Source of the DNA: Pseudomonadales bacterium
GTDB taxonomy: Bacteria; Pseudomonadota; Gammaproteobacteria; Pseudomonadales; Azotimanducaceae
Direction of reading: 5' to 3'
DNA: 64,000 nt
NCBI GenBank assembly: GCA_028285415.1
Contig: JANQPF010000005.1
Location: forward strand, 248,001 to 312,000
Below are positions 2,879-41,100 of the stretch, piece by piece. The number at the start of each line of letters is the position of its first letter. The stretch's first letter is position 1. The notes beneath the pieces are model-generated. The model did not search any database, was not told the origin of the DNA, and saw only the letters and a program-made list of their open reading frames with translations. The position numbers and the translations under genes were made by a program.

Positions 2879-3916
2879 ATGCCGTCACCGTTCGAAATAC
2901 CGCTGGATGAATCCGTGCAAACGCTCAAACGCGTTCTGCCGCTGATGAGTCAGCAACGCATCCCCACCATTCCGCAAAACTACGCGGTCTGGTACGACTA
3001 CGTCACCCGCACCAATGAGGATCTCTCCGAGGAGATTGAACGCCGCATCGAGGAAGGCCGGGACTTTGACCCGACGTCATGCCGCACGATTTACGAGAAG
3101 TACTTCATCTCCGAGCTGCAGACGGAAGTCGACGGGATCCAGGGCGCAGTTCGCGAAGCGGTCGAGTCGGTGCTCATGGAGCTCGACGGCCTGGGTGAAG
3201 ACATCAATCACTTCTCCACGGTCCTCGACAGCTGCGGCGAATCGCTGCAACAGAATCCCACAAAAGAGGATCTCAACCGCCTGGTCGTCGAGTTGGTGCG
3301 GGAAACCGCGCGAACCAAGACGCGGAGCCAGGAAGTCGAAACCTCGTTGCACAACATGGCGGACGAGCTGACGGAGCTTCGCGCTCAGGTGGATCGTCTC
3401 AGCAAAGATTCGCGCACGGATGCGCTGACCATGGTCGCCAACCGCCGTGCCTTCGACGAAGCCCTGCAACGGCTGGCACGCGAAGCCACCGACGCGGGGA
3501 CACCGCTATGCCTGATCCTGGCTGACATTGACCATTTCAAGGCGTTCAACGATACGCATGGCCACCTCATCGGTGACCGCGTTCTGCGTTTTGTTGCACA
3601 AGAGATGGAGCAGTGCGTGAAAGGCCGCGATTTGCTGGCGCGCTACGGTGGTGAAGAGTTTGCCGTGCTTCTGCCCGCAACGCCGCTGGATGGCGGCATG
3701 ATGCTGGCAGAGAGCATCCGCGCCATCATCGAAGCGCAGCGGCTGAAAGGTGACAGTGGGGACGATCTGCGGGTCACCATTTCGCTGGGCCTCGCGCAGT
3801 ATCAACCTGGCGAAGAGCTGGCGACGTTCATCGAACGGGCGGACGCCTGCCTTTATGCGTCGAAAGAGCGCGGCCGCAACCGCACAACCGGGGAAGCCCA
3901 GCTCGCCCAGCACTGA
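2879..3916 (+). CDS. Diguanylate cyclase (GGDEF)
   Basis: This 345-residue cytoplasmic protein should make c-di-GMP from two GTP. The N-terminal ~170 residues are helical and charged, without membrane segments, and are followed by a coiled-coil-like linker. The GGDEF domain begins at DALTMVANRRAF and carries an intact GGEEF signature (in LARYGGEEFAVLLP) plus the metal-binding DIDHFKAFND stretch. The inhibitory I-site position five residues before GGEEF reads KGRD rather than RxxD, so allosteric product inhibition may be weakened. No EAL domain is present. ATG 2879 is preferred; a TTG at 2870 is also in frame. The Shine-Dalgarno sequence is weak. Confidence 0.9.
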   Translation: MPSPFEIPLDESVQTLKRVLPLMSQQRIPTIPQNYAVWYDYVTRTNEDLSEEIERRIEEGRDFDPTSCRTIYEKYFISELQTEVDGIQGAVREAVESVLMELDGLGEDINHFSTVLDSCGESLQQNPTKEDLNRLVVELVRETARTKTRSQEVETSLHNMADELTELRAQVDRLSKDSRTDALTMVANRRAFDEALQRLAREATDAGTPLCLILADIDHFKAFNDTHGHLIGDRVLRFVAQEMEQCVKGRDLLARYGGEEFAVLLPATPLDGGMMLAESIRAIIEAQRLKGDSGDDLRVTISLGLAQYQPGEELATFIERADACLYASKERGRNRTTGEAQLAQH

Positions 3917-3976
3917 CGTCTCGCGCTCGATCGTTTTCCAGTTAGAATGATCCCTCCATAGAGCAGGGGTCAGCAG

Positions 3977-4732
3977 TTGTTTGTTCTTTTCCGGCCGGGC
4001 AAAGACGTCTGGGCCTATGGCGTGGAACCTGCTCGGGTGCGCTACCGCCTGCGTCTGGCAAGATACCCTGCATTGGCCGAAACGCTTCGTGATTGGCTGA
4101 AGGACAAAGATCCGGAAGCGACCTTCCGGCTGCTGGACATTGGCGCCGGTTTCGGACGCACCTTTCTCTACATCCAGCACGAGGGTGTCGGCGATCGGTT
4201 TGAGATGAACGGCATCGACATCGACCCGGAGCGAAAATCGGACGTCTATGCCGGCAATCCATGGAACGTGCAGCCGGGCAACGCGGAGGACAACCTGCCT
4301 TTCGATGACAACAGTCTCGACGTGGTGATCTGCGAGCAGCTGCTGGAGCATCTCAACCACCCCGAAACGGTCATTAGAAACGTGCATCGCGTGCTCAGAC
4401 CCGGCGGTCTTTTTGTTGTCGGCGTGCCGGTTTTTCCCGAACCGATCGCGAAGCTGCGCCGGTGGCAGGTAAAGCGATACGGTCTGCGTGGCTCTGAGCA
4501 TATTCAGACCTACTCCCTGCGCTCCATCCGCAAGGATCTGGCGGCGCTCTACGATGAGCAGGAAGCCCGCGGCTTCCGCGTCATTTCGGGAGGGTTCCTG
4601 CGGCCGCTTGAGAACTACCTCTGGTGGTACCGTTTTAATCGGTGGCTTGGCAAATTCGTCCCTGGCCTCTGTATCGAAGTGCAGCTCATCGTTTCCCCGA
4701 AGCAGATGCCGCGGGCTGAAGGCGGACCGTGA
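3977..4732 (+). CDS. Class I SAM-dependent methyltransferase
   Basis: This 251-residue Rossmann methyltransferase has motif I LLDIGAGFGRT (about 54-64), an acidic residue after beta2 (GIDIDPE), and the post-motif FDDNSLDVVICEQLLEHLNHP followed by VLRPGGLFVVGVP. This order is typical of the Methyltransf_11/25 group, whose members methylate small molecules, quinones, lipids or sugars. The substrate is not readable here. TTG 3977 is chosen because AGGGGT lies about 7 nt upstream and no ATG occurs early in the frame. Its stop overlaps the GTG start of the next gene by 4 nt, so it is probably translationally coupled to the GPH transporter. Confidence 0.82.
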   Translation: MFVLFRPGKDVWAYGVEPARVRYRLRLARYPALAETLRDWLKDKDPEATFRLLDIGAGFGRTFLYIQHEGVGDRFEMNGIDIDPERKSDVYAGNPWNVQPGNAEDNLPFDDNSLDVVICEQLLEHLNHPETVIRNVHRVLRPGGLFVVGVPVFPEPIAKLRRWQVKRYGLRGSEHIQTYSLRSIRKDLAALYDEQEARGFRVISGGFLRPLENYLWWYRFNRWLGKFVPGLCIEVQLIVSPKQMPRAEGGP

Positions 4733-6147
4733 ACGAAGCGCGGGTGTCAACGGACGCAGCGGACGCGGACGAGCCGCTTACCACTCGTGAACGTATTTGT
4801 TACAGCGTTTTCAATGGCGCTGACTACCTGATCAAAAACGTGATCGGGAAGTACATGTTCTACTTCTACACAACGACGCTCGCGATCCCGCCGCTCTGGA
4901 TCGCAATAGGCCAACCTCTGGTGAAGCTCCTCGATGTGGTCACCGACCCGCTGGTTGGCGAGTGGTCAGATCGCACAAAAAGCAAAATGGGGAAACGCCG
5001 GCCCTGGATACTCGTCGGCTCGATCACGCTCGGCATCGTCTTCCCGTTGAGCTGGATGCCCACGATTGTGATGTTTTGGGATCCGATGCCCACTCTCGTG
5101 AGCATCTTTGTTTATTTCCTGCTCTTCAAGCTCCTCTACTACGTCACGCACACGATGGCGGTGGTGCCGTACTACGCCCTGGGGGCTGAGCTTTCGCGGG
5201 ACTACCAGGAACGCACGCGTATTGTCGGCTGGCGTCACTTCATCGGCGTGCCGATGACCGTGCTCGCGACGGTGCCATTTGTGCTCGCCACCAATCCGGA
5301 ATATTTCCCGGACGAGATCACGGGCGTTGCCGTGGTGATGTGCGGGGTTGGGGTGATCATCATAGTCGCCGGGCTCGCAGCCACGTTCGGCACCCGCGAA
5401 AGAGCGAGCGTGGAACCCGGGCAGCCGCTGCCGCTCAAGCGCGCGTTAGGCATTACGCTCTCCAACCGTCCGTTCATGTTTCTGGTTGCCACCGTATTCT
5501 TTTACGGCATCGGCCAGTATTTCTCAGTCAGCTTCGCCGCCTATCTCATCACCTACATCATCTACGACGGCGACAAAGCGGGTTTTGCGACGCTCCTGAT
5601 GTGGGCCACGGCGGGTGGTGCGCTGGTCAGCATGGCACTCAATCTGCTGATTCGCCGTCTGGGTGCCAATATCGAAAAAACGCGTCTCTTGAAGATCTTT
5701 CTGCTCTTGAGTCTCACCGTGCCGCTCACGGCGCTGATTGCCTTCCAACCCGGCGAACCCTACTGGTATTTCCTCTTTCACATGCTGGCCCTGCCTCTCG
5801 GGAACACGGCGATCGAAATCCTGCCGCTGTCCATCGTCGCCGACGTCTGCGATCTGGACGAGGTGAAAAGCGGGCGCCGGCGCGAAGGCGCGTTCGTGGG
5901 GGTTTACAACTCGGCGTTCAAAACCGGTTATCTCCTGGCGCCTACGCTCAGCATGGCGCTGCTCGCTTTTACCGGCTTCGACGGCGCGCTCACCGTCCAG
6001 TCGGAAGCCACCAAGGAGTTGCTGCGCATCTGCATGGTTGGCGGGTGCGCGGTGACGTTTGTGCTGGCGTTTGTGCTCAGCCTCGGGGTACGGCTGAGCC
6101 GGGCGCAGGTGGAGCAGGCGCAGGCGCAGGCCAGAGCGGCAGACTGA
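4729..6147 (+). CDS. GPH-family cation symporter (MFS, MelB-like)
   Basis: This 472-residue inner-membrane transporter has about 12 hydrophobic segments. The region DVVTDPLVGEWSDRTKSKMG (about 61-80) followed by KRRPWI is the hallmark of the glycoside-pentoside-hexuronide:cation symporter family (MFS_2). The second half contains IVADVCDLDEVKSGRRREGAF, also typical. The usual substrates are sugars, glycosides or uronates driven by Na+ or H+. It starts with GTG inside the stop of the methyltransferase gene (GTGA overlap) and ends directly before the ATG of the aldo-keto reductase, so all three genes form one operon. Confidence 0.88.
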   Translation: MNEARVSTDAADADEPLTTRERICYSVFNGADYLIKNVIGKYMFYFYTTTLAIPPLWIAIGQPLVKLLDVVTDPLVGEWSDRTKSKMGKRRPWILVGSITLGIVFPLSWMPTIVMFWDPMPTLVSIFVYFLLFKLLYYVTHTMAVVPYYALGAELSRDYQERTRIVGWRHFIGVPMTVLATVPFVLATNPEYFPDEITGVAVVMCGVGVIIIVAGLAATFGTRERASVEPGQPLPLKRALGITLSNRPFMFLVATVFFYGIGQYFSVSFAAYLITYIIYDGDKAGFATLLMWATAGGALVSMALNLLIRRLGANIEKTRLLKIFLLLSLTVPLTALIAFQPGEPYWYFLFHMLALPLGNTAIEILPLSIVADVCDLDEVKSGRRREGAFVGVYNSAFKTGYLLAPTLSMALLAFTGFDGALTVQSEATKELLRICMVGGCAVTFVLAFVLSLGVRLSRAQVEQAQAQARAAD

Positions 6148-9320: not shown

Positions 9321-9331
9321 GTCCTCAGCCG
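9314..9331. terminator. Inverted repeat spanning two convergent stop codons
   Basis: CGGCTGAG (9314-9321) and CTCAGCCG (9324-9331) are perfectly complementary around a TC spacer. The hairpin includes the dps TGA on one strand and the kinase TGA on the other. It could act as a compact bidirectional terminator, but there is no T-run on either side. Confidence 0.35.
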
Positions 9332-10911
9332 GGCTGCAGTTCGAGACAGAACGTGGTTGGACCGTTGTCCGCGTTGAGGGTGATGTCACCTTCAACCTGG
9401 CGCAACAGAGCGCGGGCAATGGTGAGCCCCAGGCCCGTACCGCCGCGTTCCCGGGCGGTCGTGAAGAACGGCTCGAATATCTGCTCACGATTGCTTGGCG
9501 AGATGCCGGCGCCGTTGTCCTGTACATGGACTCTGAGCGTCCCGGCATCGACGCTCGGCCAGACCGAAATCTCAGTGGCTTCGTGCTGAAGCGCGTTTTC
9601 GAAGAGCGTTTCCAGCACGGCGCGAATGACTGCCTCGTCGCCGCGGCAGTGAACGTCCTCGAAGTTTCGCGGCAGCACGCGGAGATCGTGAAAGCTTTCG
9701 GCGACGGTGTGCACAACGGCCGCGAGATCCACTCGGGTGAGCTGTCCCTGGCGCAGTTCCGCCCGCGTCAGCTCCGTCAGACGCTCCGTCAGCCGTTGCA
9801 GCCGTTCGGCGTCCGCGGCAATGTTCTCGAAGAAGCGGACGCGTTGATTTTCATCCATGTTTGCGCCGTGATCCTCGAGCACTTCGATGGCCCCACGGAT
9901 CGATGCAATGGGCGTTTTGAACTCGTGGGACACGTGCCGGGAAAAGTCCTGTAGATAGTTGGCGCGCTGCTCGAGCGTCATGGCCATGTTGGTGATGGCC
10001 TCCTGCAGGCGGGCTACTTCAGTCGTTCTGGGTTTGACCGACTCGGGACTCGACAGCGTTTCGCTGGCGCTGATCTCACCCGTGGTGATCAGCTCCGCCT
10101 GGTTGGCAAGGCGCGATATGGGCCGCGCAATCAGCCGGAAGGTCAAGATCGACATGATGAGCACAATCCCGACCAGCAGCAGAAAACCCTGCAGCAGCAG
10201 CCAGCGTTTGCCATAGAGCGCCTGAACAATGCTTGGCGGTGTACGTGACAGGAGGACGGCGCCGATCAGGCGCTCGTGCAGCACGATGGGGCTTGCGACA
10301 AATACGCGGATGCTGCTGTTGCGGCTGATGCTGTCCAGGGCGGTGACCTCGGTGATGTCGTCCTTGCGCCGTATGCGGCTGGTAGCGCGACCGTAAAGGG
10401 CCATGGCCACTTCTTCGCCATGTTCGATGGACTGCCCGACATCGTTGCCCGTGCTGGCAACAATCACGCCCCAGGGGTCGACAACTCTGATACCGGCAAG
10501 CGTCACGAGCTGTGCGTCCTTGAGGACGGGCTCCAGGCGCACGCCAACGCGCCCGGCAAACGGCTCGGCGTCCGGGCCAGGCATGCCGTCGGGAAACGGT
10601 TCCAAAGTCGGTGAGGACGCCAGATCCAGGGTGGGAGGCTGCGGTAGCCAGTCGCCGTTCCGCCAGGCCGGTGCGGTTGCGTCAAGGGGGCGACTCAGCG
10701 CGTCCCAGTTCTGCGTACCCTGTTCGAGCACGAGAGAACGGTAAAACGCGGCAATGAACGCGCCCTGGGCGATGAGTGCCGATTCCGTCTGTCGCACCAG
10801 CGCGCTCTCGTACAGGCGCATCAGTTGAATGCCCGCGACCGGCAGCAGTAGCACAACCAGATTGATGCCAATCAGCACGCTGCGCAGGGACAGGCGTGGA
10901 AAGCGTGGCAT
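9325..10911 (-). CDS. Sensor histidine kinase of the exosortase locus
   Basis: This 528-residue inner-membrane kinase has TM1 at about 12-30, a periplasmic sensor of about 200 residues, TM2 at about 237-257 (LLLQGFLLLVGIVLIMSIL), and a HAMP segment (RLIARPISRLANQAE). The H-box is SHEFKTPIAS with His near 326, followed by an N-box with ENALQHE (about 440) and G boxes DNGAGIS and GGTGLGLTIA. The layout resembles ChvG/CreC-like kinases. Its ATG overlaps the response-regulator stop by one base (TGATG), so the pair is translationally coupled. Its location beside an exosortase and VIT/VWA gene echoes the dedicated-sortase kinases known from marine proteobacteria. The signal it senses is unknown. 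Confidence 0.9.
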   Translation of the reverse strand: MPRFPRLSLRSVLIGINLVVLLLPVAGIQLMRLYESALVRQTESALIAQGAFIAAFYRSLVLEQGTQNWDALSRPLDATAPAWRNGDWLPQPPTLDLASSPTLEPFPDGMPGPDAEPFAGRVGVRLEPVLKDAQLVTLAGIRVVDPWGVIVASTGNDVGQSIEHGEEVAMALYGRATSRIRRKDDITEVTALDSISRNSSIRVFVASPIVLHERLIGAVLLSRTPPSIVQALYGKRWLLLQGFLLLVGIVLIMSILTFRLIARPISRLANQAELITTGEISASETLSSPESVKPRTTEVARLQEAITNMAMTLEQRANYLQDFSRHVSHEFKTPIASIRGAIEVLEDHGANMDENQRVRFFENIAADAERLQRLTERLTELTRAELRQGQLTRVDLAAVVHTVAESFHDLRVLPRNFEDVHCRGDEAVIRAVLETLFENALQHEATEISVWPSVDAGTLRVHVQDNGAGISPSNREQIFEPFFTTARERGGTGLGLTIARALLRQVEGDITLNADNGPTTFCLELQPG

Positions 10912-11582
10912 CAGCGTTGCAGCCGATAACCTATGCCGTGCACCGTGCGGATGCCCGGAGCGCCAACGGCGATGAGCTTGTCGCGCAGACGGCGTATGTG
11001 GCTGTCGATGGTCCGTTGGCTGACAATTCTACGCACGTCGTAGGCATGCTCCATGAGCGCGTCACGACTATATACCTTGTCGGGTCGCTGACACAGCGTG
11101 CGCAGGAGGTGAAACTCCGTCTGCGTCAGCTTGATGGGTTTGTCCTGCCAGGTGACCTCGTAGGTGTCCAGGTTGATGACGTAGCCGTCGACGCTCACGA
11201 CTTTGTCGACGGTGCTTGCGCTGTCGAGGCGCCGCAGGTTGGCCTTGACCCGGGCAACCAGCTCGCGTGGGCTGAAGGGTTTGCCGATGTAGTCGTCGGC
11301 GCCCATTTCCAGGCCGAGGATCCGGTCGACCTCTTCGTCCCGGGAAGAAAGGATGAGTATCGGCACGGCACAGATGTCGCGCAGTGCCTTGCATACCGCG
11401 AGACCGTCCAGCTCCGGCATCAGCACGTCGAGCACAACGAGATCCGGGTTGTGCAGGCGGTGCTGTTCCAGCGCTTCGCGACCGTCGGCGGCGGTGATGG
11501 TGGCCATGCCCGCCTGTTCCAGGGCAAAGCAGACCACCTCGCGGATGTGTGGGTCGTCGTCGACGACGAGAACGTTGTGCAT
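10911..11582 (-). CDS. OmpR-family response regulator
   Basis: This 223-residue regulator has a receiver domain with acidic pocket VVDDDPH, phosphoacceptor Asp52 in VLDVLMPELDG, a Thr/Ser position in ILILSSRDEE and Lys in GKPFSPREL. A winged-helix DNA-binding domain follows (about 125-223), ending RTVHGIGYRLQR. It is cotranscribed with the downstream kinase and divergent from the exosortase gene, with 131 nt between the start codons. Two TTGCAC direct repeats 11 bp apart in that gap are the spacing preferred by OmpR/PhoB dimers, so it may control itself and the exosortase operon. This is inference from sequence layout. Confidence 0.93.
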   Translation of the reverse strand: MHNVLVVDDDPHIREVVCFALEQAGMATITAADGREALEQHRLHNPDLVVLDVLMPELDGLAVCKALRDICAVPILILSSRDEEVDRILGLEMGADDYIGKPFSPRELVARVKANLRRLDSASTVDKVVSVDGYVINLDTYEVTWQDKPIKLTQTEFHLLRTLCQRPDKVYSRDALMEHAYDVRRIVSQRTIDSHIRRLRDKLIAVGAPGIRTVHGIGYRLQR

Positions 11583-11631
11583 GGAGAAATTGTAACCAAG
11601 CGCGACGTGTTAAGTGTGGCACGGTAGCCAA

Positions 11632-11654
11632 TTGCACAGAATTTGCACGCAAAT
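11632..11654. promoter_or_regulatory. Direct repeats, likely OmpR-type operator
   Basis: TTGCAC occurs at 11632-11637 and again at 11643-11648, an 11-bp period. The second copy is part of an inverted repeat ATTTGC-AC-GCAAAT (11641-11654). The site lies midway between the divergent response-regulator and exosortase start codons. A 10-bp palindrome CGTAATTACG follows at 11679-11688 and could bind a second factor or overlap the exosortase promoter. Confidence 0.4.
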
Positions 11655-11713
11655 GCGCGTCTGCGGCACGGCGGAGCGCGTAATTACGTACAACGGGTCG
11701 CCACACTGGCGGC

Positions 11714-13180
11714 ATGATTCGAGCGCTACCGAACACCGCCCAGCTTACCGCGTACACACTGTGGTGCGCGGCGGCGCTGCTGGCGCTGAAACCTCTCCAA
11801 TGGCTTGTCGGCACCTGGTATCAGGCGGGTTACGAAGGGATTGGCTGGTTTGCGTGCCTGGCGGTCCTGTTCCTCGCCGGAAGCTCTCTGCGCACGCCGC
11901 TGCAAACTGCGCGAGCGCAGTTGATGATGCCTACCTACGTGCTGCTGACCTTAACCGCCTTCTTGCGTCTGGCCTCACAGCTTCTCGACGTGGACGTCGT
12001 CGGTGCGCTGCTGCTGGCAGTGGACGTCTATGCGCTCGCCCGGTTGGCGCGGCTCGACGAGCGAGCCTTTGCCGTTTCGCCGCTGTGGCTGGCGGTACTC
12101 TTCTGTTTCAGCCTGCCGGTGGAGCCAATGGTGCAGCGCGTGATCGGATTCGATCTGCAGCAGATATCGGCTTTTCTCGCCTGCGGGCTGCTGACGCCGT
12201 TCTTTCAGGAGCTCGCGTGCGAAGGTATCAGGCTGCGGCTTGCCGACGTTGACGTGCTTGTCGACCTGCCGTGTTCCGGTGCTGAGATTGTTTCGATATC
12301 CGCGTTCGTATTCAGTCTCATCAACGCGGTGCGTCGGCCCGACCTGCAATGGGGTCTCTTGAGCTCGGCCGCATGCGTGCTCCTGGCGCTTACCGGTAAC
12401 GGCTTGCGCATTGCCCTGCTTGCGATTGGCATCGCTTATGCAGACTCCCTCGGATTCAGCGTCATGGATCCGCTGCCGCACATGATGATTGGCCTTGGGG
12501 TTGTCGCTCTGACGAGCACCGCGCTCCTCGCAATCACCCGATTTTACCCAACACGAGACGCCTCTGCTCCCGCTGCAGATACCGCCCATCCTCCCTCGAC
12601 GTTCGAGCGTCCGCTCCCAGGGTTGGTATTTGCACTCAGTCTCGTGTTGTTCGCGCTGCTGGTCGGCGCGATCCAGCCGCGCCCGGTGGATGCCTCCCCG
12701 ACGCTTGCCGTCCCGGAGATGCCCTGGGTGGCGGCTGGTTTTTTGCGGGAAGCCGCGCCGCTGACGGATCAGGAGCGAACCTACTTCACCCGCTATGGCG
12801 GGGGCGCCGATCGTGCGGCGTACGGGCCTTATGGTCTGCTGCTCGTGAGCACGGCGTCTCCCCTGCGGCATCTGCACGATCCGCTGATCTGCCTGCGCGG
12901 CGCCGGGCTGGATGCGCATCTTCTGGGTACTGACCATGAGGCGGGTGAGACCGTTTACCGGGCGAGCGATGCAGCGCGCAGCTATCTTGTCCGCGTGGCT
13001 TATCGCTCTGCCGAAGGTGTGCAGGCCGCGAGCGTTGCCGAAGTCGTCTGGCACTGGCTGCGGCAGCCCGGGAGCACCTGGACGATGGTGCAGCAGGTCA
13101 TTCCGGAAGATGCAGGACTTGATGCGGGCAGTACCGCCCGCTGGCAGGCGGCCGTGCGTCGCGCATTTAATTTGACTTGA
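11714..13180 (+). CDS. Exosortase fused to an EpsI-like domain
   Basis: This 488-residue polytopic membrane protein has an N-terminal ~270 residues of exosortase type with about 8 hydrophobic segments. The catalytic triad is readable: Cys187 in DLPCSGAE, Arg232 in GNGLRIALLA, and His256 in PLPHMMIG. Exosortases cut PEP-CTERM tails and transfer the protein to another carrier. After another membrane segment (about 302-320), a soluble domain of ~165 residues carries LHDPLICLRGAG (His388, Cys393), which matches the HxPxxC pattern of EpsI proteins that normally accompany exosortases. The likely substrate gene starts 10 nt downstream. It stands alone, not inside a polysaccharide cluster. Exact exosortase subtype was not determined. 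Confidence 0.85.
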   Translation: MIRALPNTAQLTAYTLWCAAALLALKPLQWLVGTWYQAGYEGIGWFACLAVLFLAGSSLRTPLQTARAQLMMPTYVLLTLTAFLRLASQLLDVDVVGALLLAVDVYALARLARLDERAFAVSPLWLAVLFCFSLPVEPMVQRVIGFDLQQISAFLACGLLTPFFQELACEGIRLRLADVDVLVDLPCSGAEIVSISAFVFSLINAVRRPDLQWGLLSSAACVLLALTGNGLRIALLAIGIAYADSLGFSVMDPLPHMMIGLGVVALTSTALLAITRFYPTRDASAPAADTAHPPSTFERPLPGLVFALSLVLFALLVGAIQPRPVDASPTLAVPEMPWVAAGFLREAAPLTDQERTYFTRYGGGADRAAYGPYGLLLVSTASPLRHLHDPLICLRGAGLDAHLLGTDHEAGETVYRASDAARSYLVRVAYRSAEGVQAASVAEVVWHWLRQPGSTWTMVQQVIPEDAGLDAGSTARWQAAVRRAFNLT

Positions 13181-13190
13181 GGAGAGCCGC

Positions 13191-15284
13191 ATGAGCTTAC
13201 GCGTGTTATGGACGGGATTGGTTGTCGTTTGTTCCCTCTGGGGAACGGTCCAGGCTGATCCGGTGGAGAAGATGGCTGGAGCCATCGAGGCATCGCTTGA
13301 CGGGCGCAGCGTGGTGCTGGCTGCTCTCGAGAACCACTATGATGTCGCCATCAGCGGCGACGTCGTCCGTGTGAAGGTCAGGCAGACGTTTTCCAACCCG
13401 TACAGCAAACCCCTGCGAGCGCGGTACCTCTTCCCGCTCAATCGAGGCGCCGCGGTGCATGCGATGACCATGCGGGTCGGGGATGAGGTGGTTCAGGCGG
13501 AAATCCAGGAAAAACTCGAGGCGCAGCAGACTTTCGAAAAAGCGGCCAAGGCGGGTAAAGCTGCCTCCCTGCTCGAGCAGCACCGGCCCAACATGTTCAC
13601 CCAGCGCATAGCCAACCTGATGCCGAACCTGCCCATCAGCATCGACATTGAGTACACCCATACTCTGCCGAAGGTTGATGATGCCTACGAGCTGGTGATT
13701 CCGATGGTCGTTGGCCCGCGTTTCCAGCCTGCCGGGGCGGGTGTCCCGCCGTCTTCGGACGGTGGCGCACCTGTAAACGGCACGGCGTCCGTCCATGAAA
13801 GCGGCTTTGGTCAGTGGATGCTCGAGCAGCTGCCGGCCTATCCGGGAACGGCAGGGGTTGATCTGCCCGAGCAGGTTGTCGGCGACCGCGTCAGTCTTTC
13901 GCTCGTGCTCGAGACGCCGGTGCCCCTCGACGCCGTCGTTTCGCCAACCCACACGCTATCCGTGCGTGAGGTTTCCTCGTCACGCCAGGAGATGTCTTTT
14001 GCTGCCGGTCAGGTGCAGGACAACAGGGATTTTGTCCTGCGCTTTTCCCTGGCTGCCGATGCGCCGACAGCGGGGCTCCTCACTCACTGGGAAACAGAGG
14101 AGGGCGGCTACTTCAGCCTTCTCATCGAGCCGCCTGCCGAGGTCTCTGCAGATCAGACGCTGCCGCGGGAGATGGTGTTTCTACTCGACTGCTCCGGATC
14201 CATGAGCGGTCTGCCGATGGATGCCTCGAAACGCTTCATGGTCGCGGCATTGGATACGCTGCGGCCCACGGATACGTTTCGCATCATCCGCTTCAGCGAC
14301 AGCGCAACGGAGTTCTCGTCGCAGCCGCTGCAGGCAACCGCGGCTAACGTGGCGCGCGGCAAAAGTTATGCGCGAAGCCTCCATGGCAGCGGCGGGACGA
14401 TGATGACCGAAGGCATTAATCAGGCGTTGAGCGTGCCTGCGCCGGCCGGCGTGGTCCGCAACGTGGTGTTCCTGACGGATGGATACATCGGCAATGAAGT
14501 GTCGGTTCTGTCCCTGGTGAAATCGAAGCTGGGTGATGCGCGGCTCTTTGCATTTGGCGTGGGCGCCGGAGTCAACCGCTATCTCATGGGCGAGCTCGGC
14601 AGGGTAGGACGCGGCTTTACGCGCTACTACGACCCGACGCGAGACGAAGAGACGGTGACAGCCGTGGCCGCGCAGCTTGCCGCTAGACTCGAATCCCCCG
14701 TTTTGACCGACGTTGCGATTGATTGGGGCGATCTTGCGGTCAGAGACGTGCTGCCCGCGACCCTGCCGGATCTTTATGCGGGTGACTCCATTCGTGTGAC
14801 CGGTCGTTTCGCCCAACCGCAGTCTGGAGCCGTTACGGTCAGCGGCAATACGCCGAGGCACCGCGCGGAAATCCGCCGACAGGTTGAGCTTGCAGATGTC
14901 GGGCAGCGACCGGCGCTCAGACGAATCTGGGCGCGATCCGCAGTGGCCGAGCACATGCATGCTTTCATTACTCCCGAACCCCTGCGCGAAAACAAGGTAA
15001 CCAACGCTTGGCTCAAAGAGGCGGTGACAAAGCTCGGGCTGCAGCATGAGATTGCCACCCGGTGGACGTCGTTTGTCGCCGTGTCGCGTAAGGTATACAA
15101 CCAGGCCCCGGAAGATGCGCTCGATGCGGATGTGGCGTTGCCGAAGGTAGCTGGCGTGACCAAGGCGGCCTATGGGGCGCCCGCCATGACGGGCTTTGGC
15201 GCCCCGGAACCCGGGCTGTGGTTGAGCCTCCTCATCGCCCTCGCAACCCTCGGCTGGTGGCAGCGACGCGCCGTCACCGGCTGA
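13191..15284 (+). CDS. VIT/VWA surface protein with PEP-CTERM tail
   Basis: This 697-residue exported protein has a signal peptide at about 1-22 and a VIT domain at about 30-165 (DVVRVKVRQTFSNPYSKPL, FPLNRGAAVH). A VWA domain begins near 327, with MIDAS residues DCSGSMSG, a Thr in GGTMMTEG and FLTDGYIGNE. The C-terminus has Pro672-Glu-Pro674, a hydrophobic stretch (LWLSLLIALATLGW) and RR, the three-part PEP-CTERM sorting signal. Similar VIT/VWA proteins in marine proteobacteria are known as targets of a dedicated sortase; here the tail and neighbour point to an exosortase instead. GGAGAG 8 nt upstream supports ATG 13191. It is probably exported and then cleaved by the adjacent enzyme, and may act as a metal-dependent adhesin. 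Confidence 0.88.
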   Translation: MSLRVLWTGLVVVCSLWGTVQADPVEKMAGAIEASLDGRSVVLAALENHYDVAISGDVVRVKVRQTFSNPYSKPLRARYLFPLNRGAAVHAMTMRVGDEVVQAEIQEKLEAQQTFEKAAKAGKAASLLEQHRPNMFTQRIANLMPNLPISIDIEYTHTLPKVDDAYELVIPMVVGPRFQPAGAGVPPSSDGGAPVNGTASVHESGFGQWMLEQLPAYPGTAGVDLPEQVVGDRVSLSLVLETPVPLDAVVSPTHTLSVREVSSSRQEMSFAAGQVQDNRDFVLRFSLAADAPTAGLLTHWETEEGGYFSLLIEPPAEVSADQTLPREMVFLLDCSGSMSGLPMDASKRFMVAALDTLRPTDTFRIIRFSDSATEFSSQPLQATAANVARGKSYARSLHGSGGTMMTEGINQALSVPAPAGVVRNVVFLTDGYIGNEVSVLSLVKSKLGDARLFAFGVGAGVNRYLMGELGRVGRGFTRYYDPTRDEETVTAVAAQLAARLESPVLTDVAIDWGDLAVRDVLPATLPDLYAGDSIRVTGRFAQPQSGAVTVSGNTPRHRAEIRRQVELADVGQRPALRRIWARSAVAEHMHAFITPEPLRENKVTNAWLKEAVTKLGLQHEIATRWTSFVAVSRKVYNQAPEDALDADVALPKVAGVTKAAYGAPAMTGFGAPEPGLWLSLLIALATLGWWQRRAVTG

Positions 15285-15357
15285 TGCCGGCTGCAGGACG
15301 CGAGGTGCCGGGCTGCTCGCATTGCGGCTACATCTGCGTCATGTCGATTCCGCCTGA

Positions 15358-15367
15358 TTAGCGCTAA
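15358..15367. promoter_or_regulatory. 10-bp palindrome upstream of the RND operon
   Basis: TTAGCGCTAA is a perfect palindrome 33 nt before the adaptor start codon. Efflux operons are often repressed by TetR- or MarR-type proteins at such sites, but no regulator gene is adjacent and the palindrome is short. The rest of the 116-nt gap shows nothing clear. Confidence 0.25.
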
Positions 15368-15400
15368 ACTCGGGCCGTTTTACGAAACATTTGTTGTCTT

Positions 15401-16531
15401 ATGCGGTGGTTGAGTTGGCTGGGCGTGGTTGCCGTGTGCGTGGTCGTCGCCGGCAGTCTGGGGTTTTACAAGTACACCGAAATACAAGCGGCCATCGAAC
15501 GCGGCATGGCGTTCCCTGAACCTGCCGAAGCCGTTGAGATCTACGTGGTCGAAGAAGCGGCGCGCCAGCCGCGCATCGAAGTGACGGGCGAGGTTGTGGC
15601 GACCCGCTCGGCTTCGCTGCGCAACGAGCTCAAAGGTCGCATTGTCGACGTCGGGTTCGCGCCCGGCGCCCGCGTGGAAGCGGGGCAGGTGCTTCTGCGC
15701 CTCGATGTCTCCGAGGAAGAGGCGCAGCTCGCGGAGGCGCGGGCGGATCTGCAAATCACCCAGCTGGCCCTGCAGCGTGCTCAGCGCCTGGTCAGAAGCG
15801 GCGCCGGATCGGTCGAGGCGCGTGACCAGGCGCGCGCGCAATATGACGCTGCACAGGCGCGGGTGAACGCACTTGTGGCCCTCATCGACAAGAAAACGCT
15901 GCGCGCACCGTTTGCCGCCATTGCCAGCCTGCACGAGCTGGAGGTTGGCCAGCTCCTGGACGCGGGTACCGCCATCACGGAGCTTGTGGGCATTGCCGAC
16001 AGCGTATGGATCGATTTTGCGCTGCCGCAGGACAACGCGGGAATAACCGTCGGCAGCCAGGTAGACATTCTGCTCGAGTCAGGCGGGGACGCGCTGGCGG
16101 CAACCGTGATGGCCAGAGATGCGGCGGTCAACGTTCGTTCGCGGAATTTGCGGCTGCGCGCGGAGCTTCCGGCCGATGCCGCCGAATTGCTGCCGGGGAT
16201 GCTGGTCAGGGTGCTGGTGCCTCTGGCATCTTCCCAGGTAGCGACGGTGGTACCCGCAACCTCCGTGCGGCGCGATGCGCTTGGCACGAGCGTCTACGTC
16301 ATCGAACCGGTCGAGGAAGACGGTCAGTCGCGGCATCGTGCCGTCAAGCGGCGCGTGGCGCTGTCTTCGGTTCGCGGCGCCGACCTTTCGGGCGATACGG
16401 TCATTGTCACCGAGGGGCTTGTACCGGGCGAAGAGATTGCGGCCATCGGCGCCTTCAAACTCAGAGACGGTGCGCTTGTGGTGCCCGGCGAAGCGGACCC
16501 GGACGCGGCGGACAGGCTGGTGGGACACTAA
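15401..16531 (+). CDS. RND efflux periplasmic adaptor (HlyD/MFP)
   Basis: This 376-residue adaptor links the inner-membrane pump to an outer-membrane channel. An N-terminal membrane anchor (about 3-22) has no lipobox. Next come the first half of the barrel-sandwich/lipoyl domain (GRIVDVGFAPGARVEAGQVLLRLD), a coiled-coil hairpin rich in Ala/Glu/Arg (about 100-165), the returning lipoyl half (LRAPFAAIASLHELEVGQLL) and the beta-barrel and membrane-proximal regions. Length and order match the MexE/AcrA family. The Shine-Dalgarno sequence before ATG 15401 is poor. The pump gene follows after 3 nt, so the two are one operon. No tolC-like gene is present. Confidence 0.92.
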   Translation: MRWLSWLGVVAVCVVVAGSLGFYKYTEIQAAIERGMAFPEPAEAVEIYVVEEAARQPRIEVTGEVVATRSASLRNELKGRIVDVGFAPGARVEAGQVLLRLDVSEEEAQLAEARADLQITQLALQRAQRLVRSGAGSVEARDQARAQYDAAQARVNALVALIDKKTLRAPFAAIASLHELEVGQLLDAGTAITELVGIADSVWIDFALPQDNAGITVGSQVDILLESGGDALAATVMARDAAVNVRSRNLRLRAELPADAAELLPGMLVRVLVPLASSQVATVVPATSVRRDALGTSVYVIEPVEEDGQSRHRAVKRRVALSSVRGADLSGDTVIVTEGLVPGEEIAAIGAFKLRDGALVVPGEADPDAADRLVGH

Positions 16532-16534
16532 GTC

Positions 16535-19500
16535 ATGGATATGGATCAACGGCTCCTACCCAAAACGGCGCGCATCCCCAGGGTGACGGATGTCTTTGTG
16601 CACCGTCCGGTGCTGGCGATCGTCATTTCCCTCCTGCTCGTGCTGATTGGCGTGCGGGCTGCAATCGAGTTACCGGTGCTGCAGTATCCGGAGATCGAAA
16701 GCTCCTCGTTGGAGATTTCAACGCCCTACATCGGCGCATCCGCCGAGACCGTGAAAGGATTTGTCACGGAACCGATAGAGCGGGCGGCCGCCTCCATCCC
16801 AGGCGTCGACTATGTCGATTCGGAAACGACGGCGGGTATGAGCCAGGTTCGTGCGTGGCTCAAGCTGAACGAAGACAGCACCGACGCGCTGGCTGAGCTG
16901 AACACGCGTCTCAGCCAGATCAAGTTCGAGTTACCGGCGGGCGCTGAAGACCCGGCGGTATCGGTGCGTCGCGCTGACCGGCCGCAAGCGGGCTGGTATC
17001 TGGATGTGCCGATCGCGGAGAACATGGACCGAGCGCTTGTGACGGACTACCTCGTCCGCCGGGTCAATCCGCAGTTTGCAGCCATCCCGGACGTCATGCA
17101 GGTGTCGCTGGAGGGCGGGCGCGAACCGGCCATGCGGATCTGGCTGGACCCTGATCGGATGGCGGTCTTCAACGTCAGCGCCCAGGACGTGACCACGGCG
17201 CTCACGCGCAACAACGTGATCGCCACGATCGGCACCAGTGAAAATCAGACGCGGCGTATCGATCTGATGGTGGATACGAACCTCTCCGACACGGAACAGT
17301 TCGAGCAGCTGGTCATACGGGAAGTGGACGGTGCGCTCATTCGCATTCGCGACGTTGCGCGCGTGGAGCTGGGAGCCATCGAATCAACCGGTACGGCGCG
17401 GATCAGCAACGAACCGGCGGTGTTCATTGCCATCTACCCGCTGCCCGGCGCCAACGAAATTGCCATTGCCGACGCCATGTACGAGGTACTGGACGAGGTG
17501 AATCGGGAGCTCCCGGACGGCATCGAGATCTCCATCGGCTACGACGTGACGGGCTACATGCGTGACGCGCTGCGGGAGATTTTTACAACGCTGGTAGAAA
17601 CGGTGTTGCTCGTCGGCCTGGTGGTGCTCGCATTCATGGGATCCTGGCGCACCGCGCTCGTGCCTTTAGTGACGATCCCGATATCCCTGCTGGGTGCGGT
17701 GGCTGCAATCAGCATCATGGGCTTCTCGCTGAACCTGCTTACGGTGCTTGCGATTGTCCTGTCGGTGGGCCTTGTGGTCGATGACGCAATTGTTGTCGTG
17801 GAAAACGTTGCGCGTTACATGCGCGAAGGCATGAGCCGGTTCGAAGCGGCGCTTGCAAGCTCGCGTCAGCTTTTTGCGCCGATCATCGCCATGACGCTGA
17901 CCCTCGCCACGGTGTACGCGCCCATTGGTTTTCTCTCCGGTCTGACCGGCGTTCTCTTCAAGGAATTTGCGTTTACGCTTGCCGTGGCGGTGCTGATATC
18001 GGGCTTCGTGGCGTTGACGCTGTCACCGGTCATGAGCGGATTCGTCAATCAGAGCCGCGGTGAGGAAGGCCGTTTGACGATCCTCGTCAACAACCTCTTT
18101 CTCTGGACGCAGAACCACTACCGGCGCGCGCTGGATACGCTCCTGGAGAACAATGGCAAGGTGCTGTTTGTCGCCGCGTTCATTGCGTTGCTTGCGCTGC
18201 CGTTTTTTCTCTTCTCGCAGAGTGAGCTTGCGCCACGGGAAGATCAGAGCGAGATCATGGCCATCGTAACCTCACCGCCCGAGGCGCCGCTCGACTATAC
18301 GGAGCGCTACATGTACGAGGTGGTCAACGCGCTCGAGGAACTGCCGGGCGCGGTCGAGATGTGGCAGGTGGTATTTCCCGGCGGTGGGATGGGCGGCATG
18401 ATGTTTGTCGATTTCGACGACCGTCCCATGTCCGTGCACGAAATGATGCCCATTGCCTTCGGCAAGCTGTCACAGATAGAAGGGGTGACGGTTTTCCCCG
18501 CCCTCGGCTCGGCGCTGCCGACAGCCGGGCGCATGGACATTGAGCTCGTGGTGATGTCGTCTGCCAGTACCGCCGACATGATGCCCGTGGCGCTCGAGCT
18601 GGTTGACGCTGCCATTGCGAGCGGCACATTCATGTTTGCCGACACGGATTTGAAAATTGACCTGCCTCAGGCGCGCTTCGAGCTCGATCGCGAGCGAATT
18701 GCGGATCTCGGCATGGACGTTGCCTCAGTCAGCCGCCAGCTGGCGGTTTTCCTGTCGGGAAACTTCGTCAACCGGTTCGATATGAACGGCAAGGCGTACC
18801 GCGTGATTCCCATGGTGGAGGACTACGATCGCGCGAACCCCGTGGCGCTGATGGACCTGAAGATCCGCACGCCTGCGGGTGACCTGGTGCCGCTGAGCGC
18901 AATCGCCCGACTGGAAGAAACGGTGGCGCCGCGTTCGCTAGGCAAGTTTCAGCAGAATAACGCGTTCCGCATCACCGGCGGCGTTCTGCCCGGGACCACC
19001 AAGGAACAGGCGCTGACCGCGCTCGAAAACGCGGCTGCCGAGATCCTGCCTGCGGGCTACAGCGTCGACTATGCGGGAGAATCCCGACAGCTGCGCCAGG
19101 AGGGCAACACGCTCATCGGCGTGCTGGGATTGTCCATGATCTTTGTCTTCCTGGCGCTGGCGGTGCAGTTCAACAGCTTCCGCGATCCGCTGGTCGTCTT
19201 GATCGGATCCGCGCCGCTGGCCATATCCGGGGCGCTGCTGTTCACCTTCCTCGGCTGGACCACCATCAACATCTACTCCCAGGTGGGATTCATCACGCTG
19301 GTGGGGCTCATCGCCAAGAACGCCATCCTCATCGTCGAGTTCGCGCGGCAGATGCAGCAGAAAGGGCTGTCCAAGCTCGAGGCGATCAAAGAGTCGGCAG
19401 CAACCCGTTTGCGCCCGGTGCTGATGACCACTGGCGCCACGGTGATGGGTCATTTCCCGCTGGTGCTGGTGTCCGGCGCCGGCGCGGAGGCCCGCAACAG

Positions 19501-19669
19501 CATCGGCATCATCCTGGTGGCCGGTATGCTCATTGGCACCGCGTTTACGCTCTTCATACTGCCGAGCGTGTATCTCTGGCTTGGCGGCACCCACGACGTC
19601 AAGGAAGGTGAGGCGATCGGCGCACAGGCGCTGCGCGATCCGGTTGAGGCGCCGGCCACAGCTGGTTGA
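16535..19669 (+). CDS. RND multidrug efflux permease (HAE1 type)
   Basis: This 1044-residue inner-membrane proton antiporter of the AcrB/MexF family has 12 membrane segments, with large periplasmic loops after TM1 and TM7. The proton-relay Asp pair is in TM4 (VGLVVDDAIVVVENV, about 408-422), and GLIAKNAILIVEFARQM marks TM10. The signature PIVPVLQ-like region near the start reads ELPVLQYPEIESSSLEIST. Substrates are probably hydrophobic toxins or drugs; specificity cannot be read. It starts 3 nt after the adaptor stop. Its end contains a tandem 13-nt repeat of no obvious function. An outer-membrane factor must come from elsewhere. Confidence 0.93.
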   Translation: MDMDQRLLPKTARIPRVTDVFVHRPVLAIVISLLLVLIGVRAAIELPVLQYPEIESSSLEISTPYIGASAETVKGFVTEPIERAAASIPGVDYVDSETTAGMSQVRAWLKLNEDSTDALAELNTRLSQIKFELPAGAEDPAVSVRRADRPQAGWYLDVPIAENMDRALVTDYLVRRVNPQFAAIPDVMQVSLEGGREPAMRIWLDPDRMAVFNVSAQDVTTALTRNNVIATIGTSENQTRRIDLMVDTNLSDTEQFEQLVIREVDGALIRIRDVARVELGAIESTGTARISNEPAVFIAIYPLPGANEIAIADAMYEVLDEVNRELPDGIEISIGYDVTGYMRDALREIFTTLVETVLLVGLVVLAFMGSWRTALVPLVTIPISLLGAVAAISIMGFSLNLLTVLAIVLSVGLVVDDAIVVVENVARYMREGMSRFEAALASSRQLFAPIIAMTLTLATVYAPIGFLSGLTGVLFKEFAFTLAVAVLISGFVALTLSPVMSGFVNQSRGEEGRLTILVNNLFLWTQNHYRRALDTLLENNGKVLFVAAFIALLALPFFLFSQSELAPREDQSEIMAIVTSPPEAPLDYTERYMYEVVNALEELPGAVEMWQVVFPGGGMGGMMFVDFDDRPMSVHEMMPIAFGKLSQIEGVTVFPALGSALPTAGRMDIELVVMSSASTADMMPVALELVDAAIASGTFMFADTDLKIDLPQARFELDRERIADLGMDVASVSRQLAVFLSGNFVNRFDMNGKAYRVIPMVEDYDRANPVALMDLKIRTPAGDLVPLSAIARLEETVAPRSLGKFQQNNAFRITGGVLPGTTKEQALTALENAAAEILPAGYSVDYAGESRQLRQEGNTLIGVLGLSMIFVFLALAVQFNSFRDPLVVLIGSAPLAISGALLFTFLGWTTINIYSQVGFITLVGLIAKNAILIVEFARQMQQKGLSKLEAIKESAATRLRPVLMTTGATVMGHFPLVLVSGAGAEARNSIGIILVAGMLIGTAFTLFILPSVYLWLGGTHDVKEGEAIGAQALRDPVEAPATAG

Positions 19670-38147: not shown

Positions 38148-41100
38148 CTACCACTTGCCAATCAGGTCGACAAACCAGCCGTGGTTGTCGTATTCGGCGT
38201 CTTTCAAATCGTCGTTGAAATCCGTGAAGTTATAACCGATGCCAAGCTTCATATGTTCGCCGATGTGCCGGTACAGACCAATCAGTGAGCCGTGGCGCGT
38301 GCTCTCACCAAAGCGGTCGTGCAGGTAGCGGTACTCGATCAGACCGTCCCAACGGTGCGTGAGGTGATAGCGCGCCCGTAGCACGCCGAGGCCAACGCCG
38401 TAGTCTTCCCAGGGACCCATGTCCCTGCCCGCACGCAGACGGCCTTCTTTCAAGGCAACCTTGCCGCCCAGTTCCCAGCGCGCGTTGACGCGATACAAGG
38501 CTTCGGTAGACAGGATGTGGACGTCCTGGTCGGGTCGGTCGACGCTCTGACCGACGCTCACGAGGTCATAGAAGTAGCTGTACTTTGTCAGCACGTTCCA
38601 GCGGTCGCCGTTGACGGGCCGGTATGCATGTCCGAGATCGAATTCTACGAACCGCGCGTTGCGATTCCCGGATATCTCATCGTCCGTCCACGAAAGATTC
38701 AGCTGCCCGAGCCAGCGGCGATGATCGCTGTAGATGTAGGTTGCGCTGGTGCTCAGGAGATATTGACGGCTATCAACGAGCGCCCCTTCGTCAGCCCGGT
38801 ATTCGAGCTTGCTTGCGAACTTCAGGCGATCCCGCTTGAGCGTTGCACCCAGGGAAGCGGCCATGCGCTCAAACGCGTTGGCGTCCGTGTCGTTCTCGGA
38901 GTACTGCAACAAGCTCGACAATACCCAGCCGGCATCGGTATCGAAATCCAGACCAAACGCGTGGTTCACACCACCGTAGCGGTCGTCTTTACCAAACTGT
39001 GACTCGGTGAAAACCCCCAGACGGTTACCCGCATCGCGCCGCTGCCCGATTGTCAGGAGCTCGCGCGCCCCATCCGTTCGGTCGGGATCCACCGTGTAGG
39101 AGCCGTAGAGTTCGTGACCCTCGGCCAGCTGGTAGCTGCCGGTGAAGCCATTGAGCGCGCCGCTGCCGACGCCGCCTTTGACGTTGAAGTCGAGACGGTC
39201 AGCCGGTGAGAAATCCAGTCCGCCCACCAACGCGCTGCCGCGATCGCCGTCGACCGCTTCCAGGCTCATTGCGGTGTGTGGACTCATCCGCGTGTTGACG
39301 CCTACGGTGACCAGGTCGTTGTCTTCATAGTCGCCTTCTTCATCCAGGCCTGTTTGCAGCGCTGCATAAAGCGTCTGGCGTTCGTTCAGTGCATACCCGA
39401 GACGCGCGCCGGCGAGGAGCCCTTCACCGTCACTTTGCAGGCCGGGCGAAAGGCTCTCACGCACGATATCTTCGTGCCGCACCTCACCACCGATGGTCAG
39501 GCGGTCGACCTTCACGTCGGCCTGCACGCGAGCTACCTTGGTGTGGTGTCTGCCGTCCTCCTCCAGATCCGTATAGGACGACGACAGCGCAATACCGTCG
39601 GCGGGTTGCCATTTCGCCTCGACGCCCTGGTCGGTGACTTCCAGCCCTTCTCGCAGACGGCCGTTGGAGAACTCGGCATCGCGGTTCTTGTGCCAGGCAC
39701 GCACATCACCCTTCAAGGTGTCACTGACTTCGCCCAGATTGACGCGTGCTTCGATGCCAATCGCATCTCCGGACAACGTGTCGCCGTTACCCGAGCCGTT
39801 CTGATCGGTGAAGCTCAAGCCGCCGTCAGCGGAGCCGAATCCGGCGTCGTGCTGACGCGCATCGCTGCGCGCGACTTCGGCGCTGATATAGGTTCCCTTT
39901 CCGGCCTTCAGCGTGAGGTCGACACCCTGCAGATCGAAGTCGGTGCCGTCCCGTTCGTCGACGACTTTGCTGACCCCCACGCCAACGTGGTCGCCGAGCC
40001 AGGTCTGGGCGCGCCCGCCGTAGGTCATGTCCTCAGCGTCGAAGCCGGCTGGCACGTACTCGTAGTCCACCAGCAGGAACACGTCGTCTCCTTCGAGTGC
40101 GTCGGTGCGGATGATCGTACCGGCACGATCGTTTACCACCTGACTCAGAGGTCGGGAGAGGATGATGCGCCCCTGCAGAGGGTCAATTTCGTAGTCCCGC
40201 CCTGCAATGTATTCCTGGCGTTCGATCACCTGCTCCGTGTCGCGCTGACGAACCTCAACCCAGACTTTTTCGGAGCCCTGCACGATATCGGTGTGCTTGA
40301 GGTAGTACAGCGAACCACCGGTGGCTCGGAAGGTAACGTGCGCTGCTGCGCTCTGGGCTTCGGAGGCGAACACGTTCGCACGGGTGCGCGCGTCGCCATA
40401 TCGCGTTTGAGCCTGGCTGGCATGGCTGCCTTTGGCTCCGTAAAGCGAACGGTTGTACTGCGCGAACTCCGTGTCGGTCAGGCCCGTATTGAAGTTACCC
40501 CACAGGAGCTGATTGCGGTCCCAGTCGAGCCGCAGATAGAACGCACCTTGCGAATCCACGTCGCTGACCGTGGTGGAGTCGTCACCGTACACGGCGTAGT
40601 AGCGGTTCGGATCCAGCTGGCGGAAAACACGGCGTGGGTCTTCACGTCGCAGGTTGTCGCTGAACTCGCTCAGCTCGTCCTCCGTGCTGTCGAGCTGTGC
40701 GGTGAGCAGGTATTTCCCTTTGATCTTGGCCTTTGCGTAGAACGCCAGCCGGCCGTCGACAAACACGGACTCGTCGAAATGATCATCGCCAGCCAGGCTT
40801 TCGAAGTCGCCACTCAGATCCTGCTGGCCGGCGGTGATGTTCGCGAGCGCAACGAAGAACGTATAGTTGTCGTCTACCTCGGTTTCCAGGGCCTGCTGCC
40901 ATACGGGGGTGCCCGCACGTAGCCCGGAGACGTTGAAAACCTGCCTGCCTTCAGCCGCCTGAAACTCTGCCGCGAAGCGTCCCTGCCGGTCCAGCGGGAT
41001 CGTTCGCTCGTTGACGATGACGGTGTCCACGTCCGCGAGCGCTGACCCGTTCACGCGTATGCGACTGCCGGCCACGGGGATCACCTGGCGGGCCAGGTTG

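Follow-up and report, generated by a model that had tools for sequence, protein, structure and literature searches.

Four genes at positions 9325–15284 of a 64,000-nucleotide stretch of contig JANQPF010000005.1 (assembly GCA_028285415.1, a Pseudomonadales bacterium of the Azotimanducaceae) encode a sensor histidine kinase, a response regulator, an exosortase and a protein with VIT and VWA domains. We call the whole stretch the window and use its positions as locus numbering. Judged from sequence, the locus quite probably encodes a regulated, dedicated pair for surface display, in which exosortase T (XrtT) would serve a single VIT/VWA target under a switch resembling CreBC. A first-pass annotation of the same DNA had proposed these four genes, all of which are present where it put them, and had read them as a dedicated exosortase/VIT-VWA/two-component module; the conserved neighbourhood and conserved tail described below support that reading.

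A VIT/VWA gene follows XrtT

By its sequence the window enzyme is an ordinary full-length member of the exosortase T family. It scores 465.4 bits against NCBIfam model NF033770 (cut-off 250), with residues 15–487 aligning to positions 3–472 of 472, and we detected no difference from the family; the caveat, entered with the original annotation, that similar loci might already be named was therefore justified as far as the enzyme family is concerned. The three residues that had been singled out, C187, R232 and H256, are present and invariant in 12 of 12 aligned XrtT proteins, and we take them to be the catalytic Cys/Arg/His of exosortases.

We surveyed XrtT loci by scanning genomes with the 12-protein alignment and keeping the best 80 of 90 relatives. 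The loci come from Alpha- and Gammaproteobacteria, Nitrospinota bins and a few other metagenome bins, with Stappia sediminis, Roseibium, Aliiroseovarius, Ruegeria and Sinimarinibacterium among the carriers. In 79 of the 80 loci, the gene directly downstream of XrtT and on its strand encodes a VIT/VWA protein or a part of one (within 200 bp in 78 and at 1446 bp in one); in the 80th, the contig ends inside XrtT. The same pairing is found in the window and in two further genomes (L047, L049). Earlier scans had given 8 of 195, 4 of 369 and 2 of 398 genomes above the XrtT cut-off, the window's own genome being counted each time, and in all eleven XrtT genomes besides that one a VIT/VWA gene stands beside XrtT, cut in one case by a contig end. 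As nine of these eleven appear to duplicate surveyed records, the total comes to about 83 distinct XrtT loci.

The only families that recur widely around the 80 loci are the VIT/VWA protein, the regulator and the kinase; the next most frequent occurs in 8 of 80. As controls, we found no VIT/VWA match at any of 22 loci of weak NF033770 matches in relatives (up to about 1.5 kb per side), nor at the locus of a second exosortase of the window's own genome, which is an XrtE of the VPEID-CTERM type (TIGR04162, 226 bits, cut-off 150). The distances among XrtT, VIT/VWA, regulator and kinase proteins correlate across 47 loci (r 0.80–0.93 for five pairs, with 0 of 999 permutations as high).

Some further features of these loci were seen in passing. 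The XrtE of the window's own genome is fused to a CAAX-type protease (C2:1016902-1017702; L055:9753-11396). A membrane protein gene lies behind the target in seven XrtT loci of methanotrophs, Nitrospinota and alphaproteobacterial bins (L171, at 3679–5295, L172, L179, L187, L192, L203 and L207), the copy in L172 being a DUF4153 protein.

The target and its C-terminal tail

The VIT (residues 49–155) and VWA (327–477) domains of the window target both score above the Pfam cut-offs, and the predicted structure of the protein (mean pLDDT 72) matches inter-alpha-inhibitor heavy chain (ITIH) 1 with an E-value of 4e-37. The VWA residues D333, S335, S337, T403 and D430, which we presume to form a metal site, are invariant in 11 of 11 proteins.

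The target ends, as had been claimed, in PEP, a hydrophobic stretch and RR. Despite a Pfam PEP-CTERM score of 10.2 bits, under the cut-off of 20.7, this tail is conserved as a putative sorting signal. We compared 75 complete XrtT-linked tails, taken from the window, the two further genomes and 72 of the 80 surveyed loci; seven surveyed loci with a cut or partial target and nine duplicate-record loci were left out, and one target gene in two pieces (L156) was counted by its second piece. PEP is present in 72 of the 75 tails, with PAA, PEA and HEP once each. The hydrophobic stretch passes our hydrophobicity limit in 74, at least two K or R residues follow it in 74, and many tails share F-x-G-[GS]-[SGA]-x upstream of PEP. 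The first reading had been tied to two things, a conserved neighbourhood of the homologues and a tail conserved as a sorting signal, and the survey found both. In the window's own genome no protein scored above the Pfam PEP-CTERM cut-off, the target tail ranking best (18.8 versus 20.7 bits); against TIGR02595 (cut-off 16), a 58-residue frame elsewhere reached 16.0 and the target tail 14.4.

In Stappia, Roseibium, Pseudovibrio and some Rhizobiales bins (L141, L146, L147, L149, L155, L173, L178, L195 and L206), the targets extend 44–55 residues past the hydrophobic stretch and end in a conserved LPRxLRRDGWWLE-like motif, seemingly unusual for a PEP-CTERM tail. Target or kinase genes appear to be split into two frames in the bins L156, L148 and L162, by sequencing error or decay.

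A CreBC-like pair and a conserved direct repeat

The best NCBIfam models for the window kinase and regulator are CreC (175.1 bits) and CreB (234.7 bits), yet both proteins score under the respective cut-offs of 356 and 273 and the pair falls into a clade separate from CreBC (see below). For 10 of 10 XrtT-linked kinases, too, CreC is matched and gives the best E-value. Linkage of XrtT to a kinase/regulator pair is seen at 54 of the 80 loci, among Alpha- and Gammaproteobacteria as well as Nitrospinota bins; of the 50 loci with at least 5 kb on both sides, 42 show it. Among the 51 loci that were classed, the pair is downstream in the same direction in 35, divergent upstream in 12 and co-oriented upstream in 4.

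An alignment of the window with six related divergent loci revealed a shared intergenic direct repeat with an 11-bp period. Scanning the 76 loci with 350 bp upstream of XrtT, we found TGCAC-N6-TGCAC exactly in 39 and with one mismatch in 19, while ten other spacings of the half-sites gave 0–1 exact copies each in the same sequences, and 380 control segments gave no exact box and five with one mismatch. All 39 exact boxes lie on the XrtT strand, 38–201 bp before the aligned start. The longer form, TTGCAC-N5-TTGCAC, has one exact copy in the window's own genome, in the intergenic region of the locus (Table 1). In a published account, the cre/blr box of E. coli CreB is given as TTCACnnnnnnTTCAC, that is TTCAC-N6-TTCAC (PMC3660660); its spacing equals that of the box at XrtT loci, and its half-site differs by one base. 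The direct repeat is probably the binding site of the regulator.

Dedication and control

Several observations weigh against a pair that is both dedicated and regulated, and two other readings draw on them. XrtT could be a general exosortase, with the VIT/VWA protein just the adjacent one among several targets, as the other PEP-CTERM matches in several XrtT genomes would allow. Four genomes (G006, G018, G048 and G231) have many such matches together with a second exosortase, so that adjacency is the sole argument for exclusivity there; in G261 a strong second exosortase goes with few matches; in G106, which is 77% complete, there are nine matches and XrtT is the only exosortase found. We nevertheless consider a general exosortase very improbable. 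The genomes with at least nine matches are the first four and G106, and all but G106 have another exosortase. In G793, moreover, XrtT is the sole exosortase found and the VIT/VWA tail the sole PEP-CTERM match above the cut-off, in G025 that tail is the only match at all, and the linkage of the two genes is nearly universal.

The two-component pair, in turn, could be a neighbour with other duties that does not control the exosortase pair. This would fit the eight of the 50 well-flanked loci that lack a linked pair, although G261, one of these, has matching genes for a regulator and a kinase at a distance of about 8.4 kb from XrtT; it would also fit our search of 11500–15450, in which no sigma-70-like promoter was found. 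The breadth of the linkage across three groups of bacteria makes this reading improbable, as does the fate of the box, which is exact or has one mismatch in 48 of the 54 loci with a linked regulator versus 10 of the 22 without. Two further points count on the same side as the exceptions. Exact TTCAC-N6-TTCAC is absent from five sortase-type loci that carry CreBC-like pairs (described below), so the comparison of our box with the Cre box stands on the E. coli consensus. The counts are also not independent, because the 80 loci are related, a relatedness that the spacing control shares.

The EpsI-like domain and a proposed mechanism

The enzyme had been described as an exosortase-EpsI fusion. What stands of this is the similarity of the HDPLIC motif, around which R385, H386, L387, H388, P390 and C393 are invariant in all 12 aligned XrtT proteins; membership by EpsI models does not, as such models, TIGR02914 included, gave no match for the window XrtT up to an E-value of 1. 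Compared with a profile of five true EpsI domains, drawn from 22 loci of other exosortases of which about half were unused, the XrtT domain reached a probability of 34% (E 4e-4), HDPLICLRGAG aligning with HSPKSCLPGGGW. Because of these two results we use 'EpsI-like' at the level of the motif only. The predicted fold of the domain (residues 330–486) weakly resembles PsbP and SciW/EagT6 proteins, which bind transmembrane segments.

For the dedicated and regulated pair that we favour, we propose that the VIT/VWA protein would be exported by Sec, its C-terminal helix anchoring it in the inner membrane. XrtT, by means of C187, R232 and H256, would recognise the F-x-G-x-x-x-PEP/helix/basic tail, cut near PEP and pass on the cut protein, which would probably be attached to a molecule of the envelope or surface. 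The EpsI-like domain would lie on the periplasmic side and assist in handling the acceptor or the tail of the substrate. The outcome would be an ITIH-like protein with a metal-site VWA domain outside the cell, where it may act in adhesion. The CreC-like kinase would sense an envelope signal, and the CreB-like regulator would turn on XrtT and the target, and possibly itself, by binding to TGCAC-N6-TGCAC in the promoter region shared by the divergent genes.

Relation to the marine dedicated sortase system

Like the XrtT locus, the marine dedicated sortase system (sortase TIGR03784) combines a single processing enzyme and a single VIT/VWA target with a kinase and a regulator, and its targets are homologous to those of XrtT; it differs in combining an xxTA-like motif with a sortase where the XrtT locus combines PEP with an exosortase. 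Against the models of the marine system, the window kinase scores 100 bits (TIGR03785, cut-off 612.2), the regulator 155.1 (TIGR03787, 335.7) and the target 463.5 (TIGR03788, 551.65).

We surveyed TIGR03788 (E up to 1e-60) in 274 genomes of the class and found 52 VIT/VWA matches in 44 genomes: 36 of sortase type, which were assigned by group and not by motif, 4 of XrtT type, 6 GlyGly-CTERM-like and 6 without a tail (L122, L123, L124, L126, L127 and L128). A sortase-like gene accompanies 35 of the 36 sortase-type loci (the other, L120, is cut) and none of 104 other loci, XrtT loci and the window included; the whole window gave no match to five sortases of sortase-type loci. The xxTA-like motif is found in 34 of the 36, L108 and L120 being the exceptions. 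In five sortase-type loci (L108, L112, L116, L117 and L119) a CreBC-like pair lies nearby in place of the usual sortase-type pair.

In a tree of 80 VIT proteins, the XrtT, sortase and GlyGly types each form a separate clade with support of 100, and the tail-less L122, L123 and L127 join the XrtT side (86), followed by L124 (98). This tree was built without L120; its 33 XrtT-type proteins were that of the window, eight from the earlier scans and every third complete surveyed one, and some records are present under two identifiers (for example L045 and L136). A tree of regulators, in which the window and every second of 47 pairs were included and the pairs of L095 and L101 were treated as unrelated, gave the same kind of picture: XrtT-linked pairs, common sortase-linked pairs (which we assume to be those labelled 'Pds') and CreBC-type pairs each form their own clade (100), and nine other E. 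coli systems fall outside a group that unites the three clades (99). The earlier suggestion, that a sortase module had exchanged its enzyme and nothing else, thus keeps the shared layout and the homologous targets but loses the 'nothing else', as all three parts score under the model cut-offs and fall into separate clades.

How the XrtT locus arose can be argued in two ways. An ancestral VIT/VWA module with a CreBC-like pair may have had its enzyme replaced later, by a sortase in one line and by XrtT in the other, an origin to which we give an appreciable, if less than even, chance. The homology of the VIT/VWA proteins across tail types and the common grouping of the three kinds of pair argue for it, as do the five sortase-type loci with CreBC-like pairs, whose kinases reach 293–320 bits when scored against the best of the E. 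coli kinases used. The clades are nonetheless unmixed in both trees, the XrtT-type VIT proteins group with tail-less proteins rather than with the sortase type, and the outgroups of the regulator tree are from E. coli only. Any exchange would have been ancient, because the enzyme types form separate, unmixed clades.

Independent assembly, in which VIT/VWA proteins repeatedly took up an available enzyme and an envelope-sensing pair so that the layout is convergent, has close to an even chance in our estimate. It would account for the varied gene order of the 51 classed loci and for the existence of GlyGly-type and tail-less VIT/VWA versions, and it sits less easily with the recurrence of the same regulator group and the co-evolution of the four genes within XrtT loci. 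In a broader and rather unlikely scenario, the XrtT, marine sortase and CreBC pairs would descend from one ancestral pair that controlled a surface VIT/VWA protein, and the enzyme would have changed at least once (to sortase or XrtT). A variant Cre box would then have been retained in the XrtT line, where it would serve as a switch with nearly a single site, giving a circuit with one signal, one enzyme and one substrate for surface display.

Another exosortase family with a named target family is XrtN (TIGR04476), with TIGR04477 (sorted_by_XrtN), the latter presumably a VIT-domain protein of Bacteroidota. The window exosortase scores 30 bits against the XrtN model (cut-off 200); TIGR04477 was matched neither by the target nor by any protein of the window's own genome, and control genomes gave no match either.

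As far as its account of the tails goes, a 2011 paper describes this VIT/VWA family with GlyGly-CTERM, LPXTG or PEP-CTERM tails, gives Verrucomicrobium spinosum as the PEP-CTERM example, and in that account mentions neither XrtT nor regulators nor a DNA box (PMC3237569).

Layout of the locus

The kinase and regulator genes are divergent from the exosortase gene, and the VIT/VWA gene starts 10 bp past the latter (Table 1). The nearest other genes resemble transporters, an aldo-keto reductase, a ferritin-like (Dps-type) protein, an RND efflux pair and a sulfatase; no polysaccharide genes were found among the scanned neighbours of the four-gene set.

Table 1. Features of the XrtT locus, in window positions
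Feature	Position	Strand	Basis
Sensor histidine kinase (HisKA-HATPase), CreC-like, 528 amino acids	9325–10911	-	Pfam HisKA and HATPase_c above cut-off, HAMP slightly under
Response regulator of OmpR/PhoB type, CreB-like, 223 amino acids	10911–11582	-	Response_reg and Trans_reg_C above cut-off
Intergenic region separating the divergent regulator and exosortase genes	11583–11713	.	Gene coordinates; aligned with six further divergent loci
Direct repeat TTGCACAGAATTTGCAC with half-sites 11 bp apart; probable box of the regulator	11632–11648	+	Only exact genomic TTGCAC-N5-TTGCAC; kept upstream of XrtT elsewhere
Exosortase T (XrtT), 488 amino acids	11714–13180	+	NF033770, 465 bits (cut-off 250); Exosortase_EpsH above cut-off
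Codon stretch of presumed catalytic C187, R232, H256	12272–12481	+	Invariant in 12 of 12
C-terminal EpsI-like domain, XrtT residues 330–486, with RHLHDPLICL	12701–13171	+	
VIT/VWA target, ITIH-like, 697 amino acids	13191–15284	+	VIT and VWA above cut-off; predicted-fold match 6fpy
VWA domain with metal-site motif D333-x-S335-x-S337, T403, D430	14169–14621	+	Residues invariant in 11 of 11
C-terminal sorting tail (putative): TGFGAPEP, hydrophobic stretch, QRR	15180–15281	+	Conservation over 75 complete tails

The RND efflux adaptor and permease lie right behind the target (15401–19669); related RND pairs are found behind the target in L137–L139, and a related permease upstream of XrtT in L210. 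Elsewhere in the window, 38148–48416 (minus strand) encodes a probable giant surface protein of 3422 residues, in which DUF11, SdrD_B and OmpA domains were recognised.

Significance

Exosortase T was already known as a named family, and the switching of tails within the target family is in print. The present analysis adds the conserved box, the association with a CreBC-like pair and the strict linkage of XrtT to the VIT/VWA protein; among the papers listed for open-access full text, we found none on XrtT loci or on any of these three features. To our knowledge, the chemistry of exosortases and their surface acceptor are still open questions. Species with PEP-CTERM proteins often have twenty or more of them, according to the 2011 paper (PMC3237569), and mutants are hard to interpret for this reason. 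The XrtT module, a set of four genes that would pair one enzyme with one substrate and probably includes a switch, would be a clean test case, and its conserved box offers a means of switching the pair on. The box is also a first hint that the signal may be of the CreBC kind, possibly envelope or cell-wall stress.

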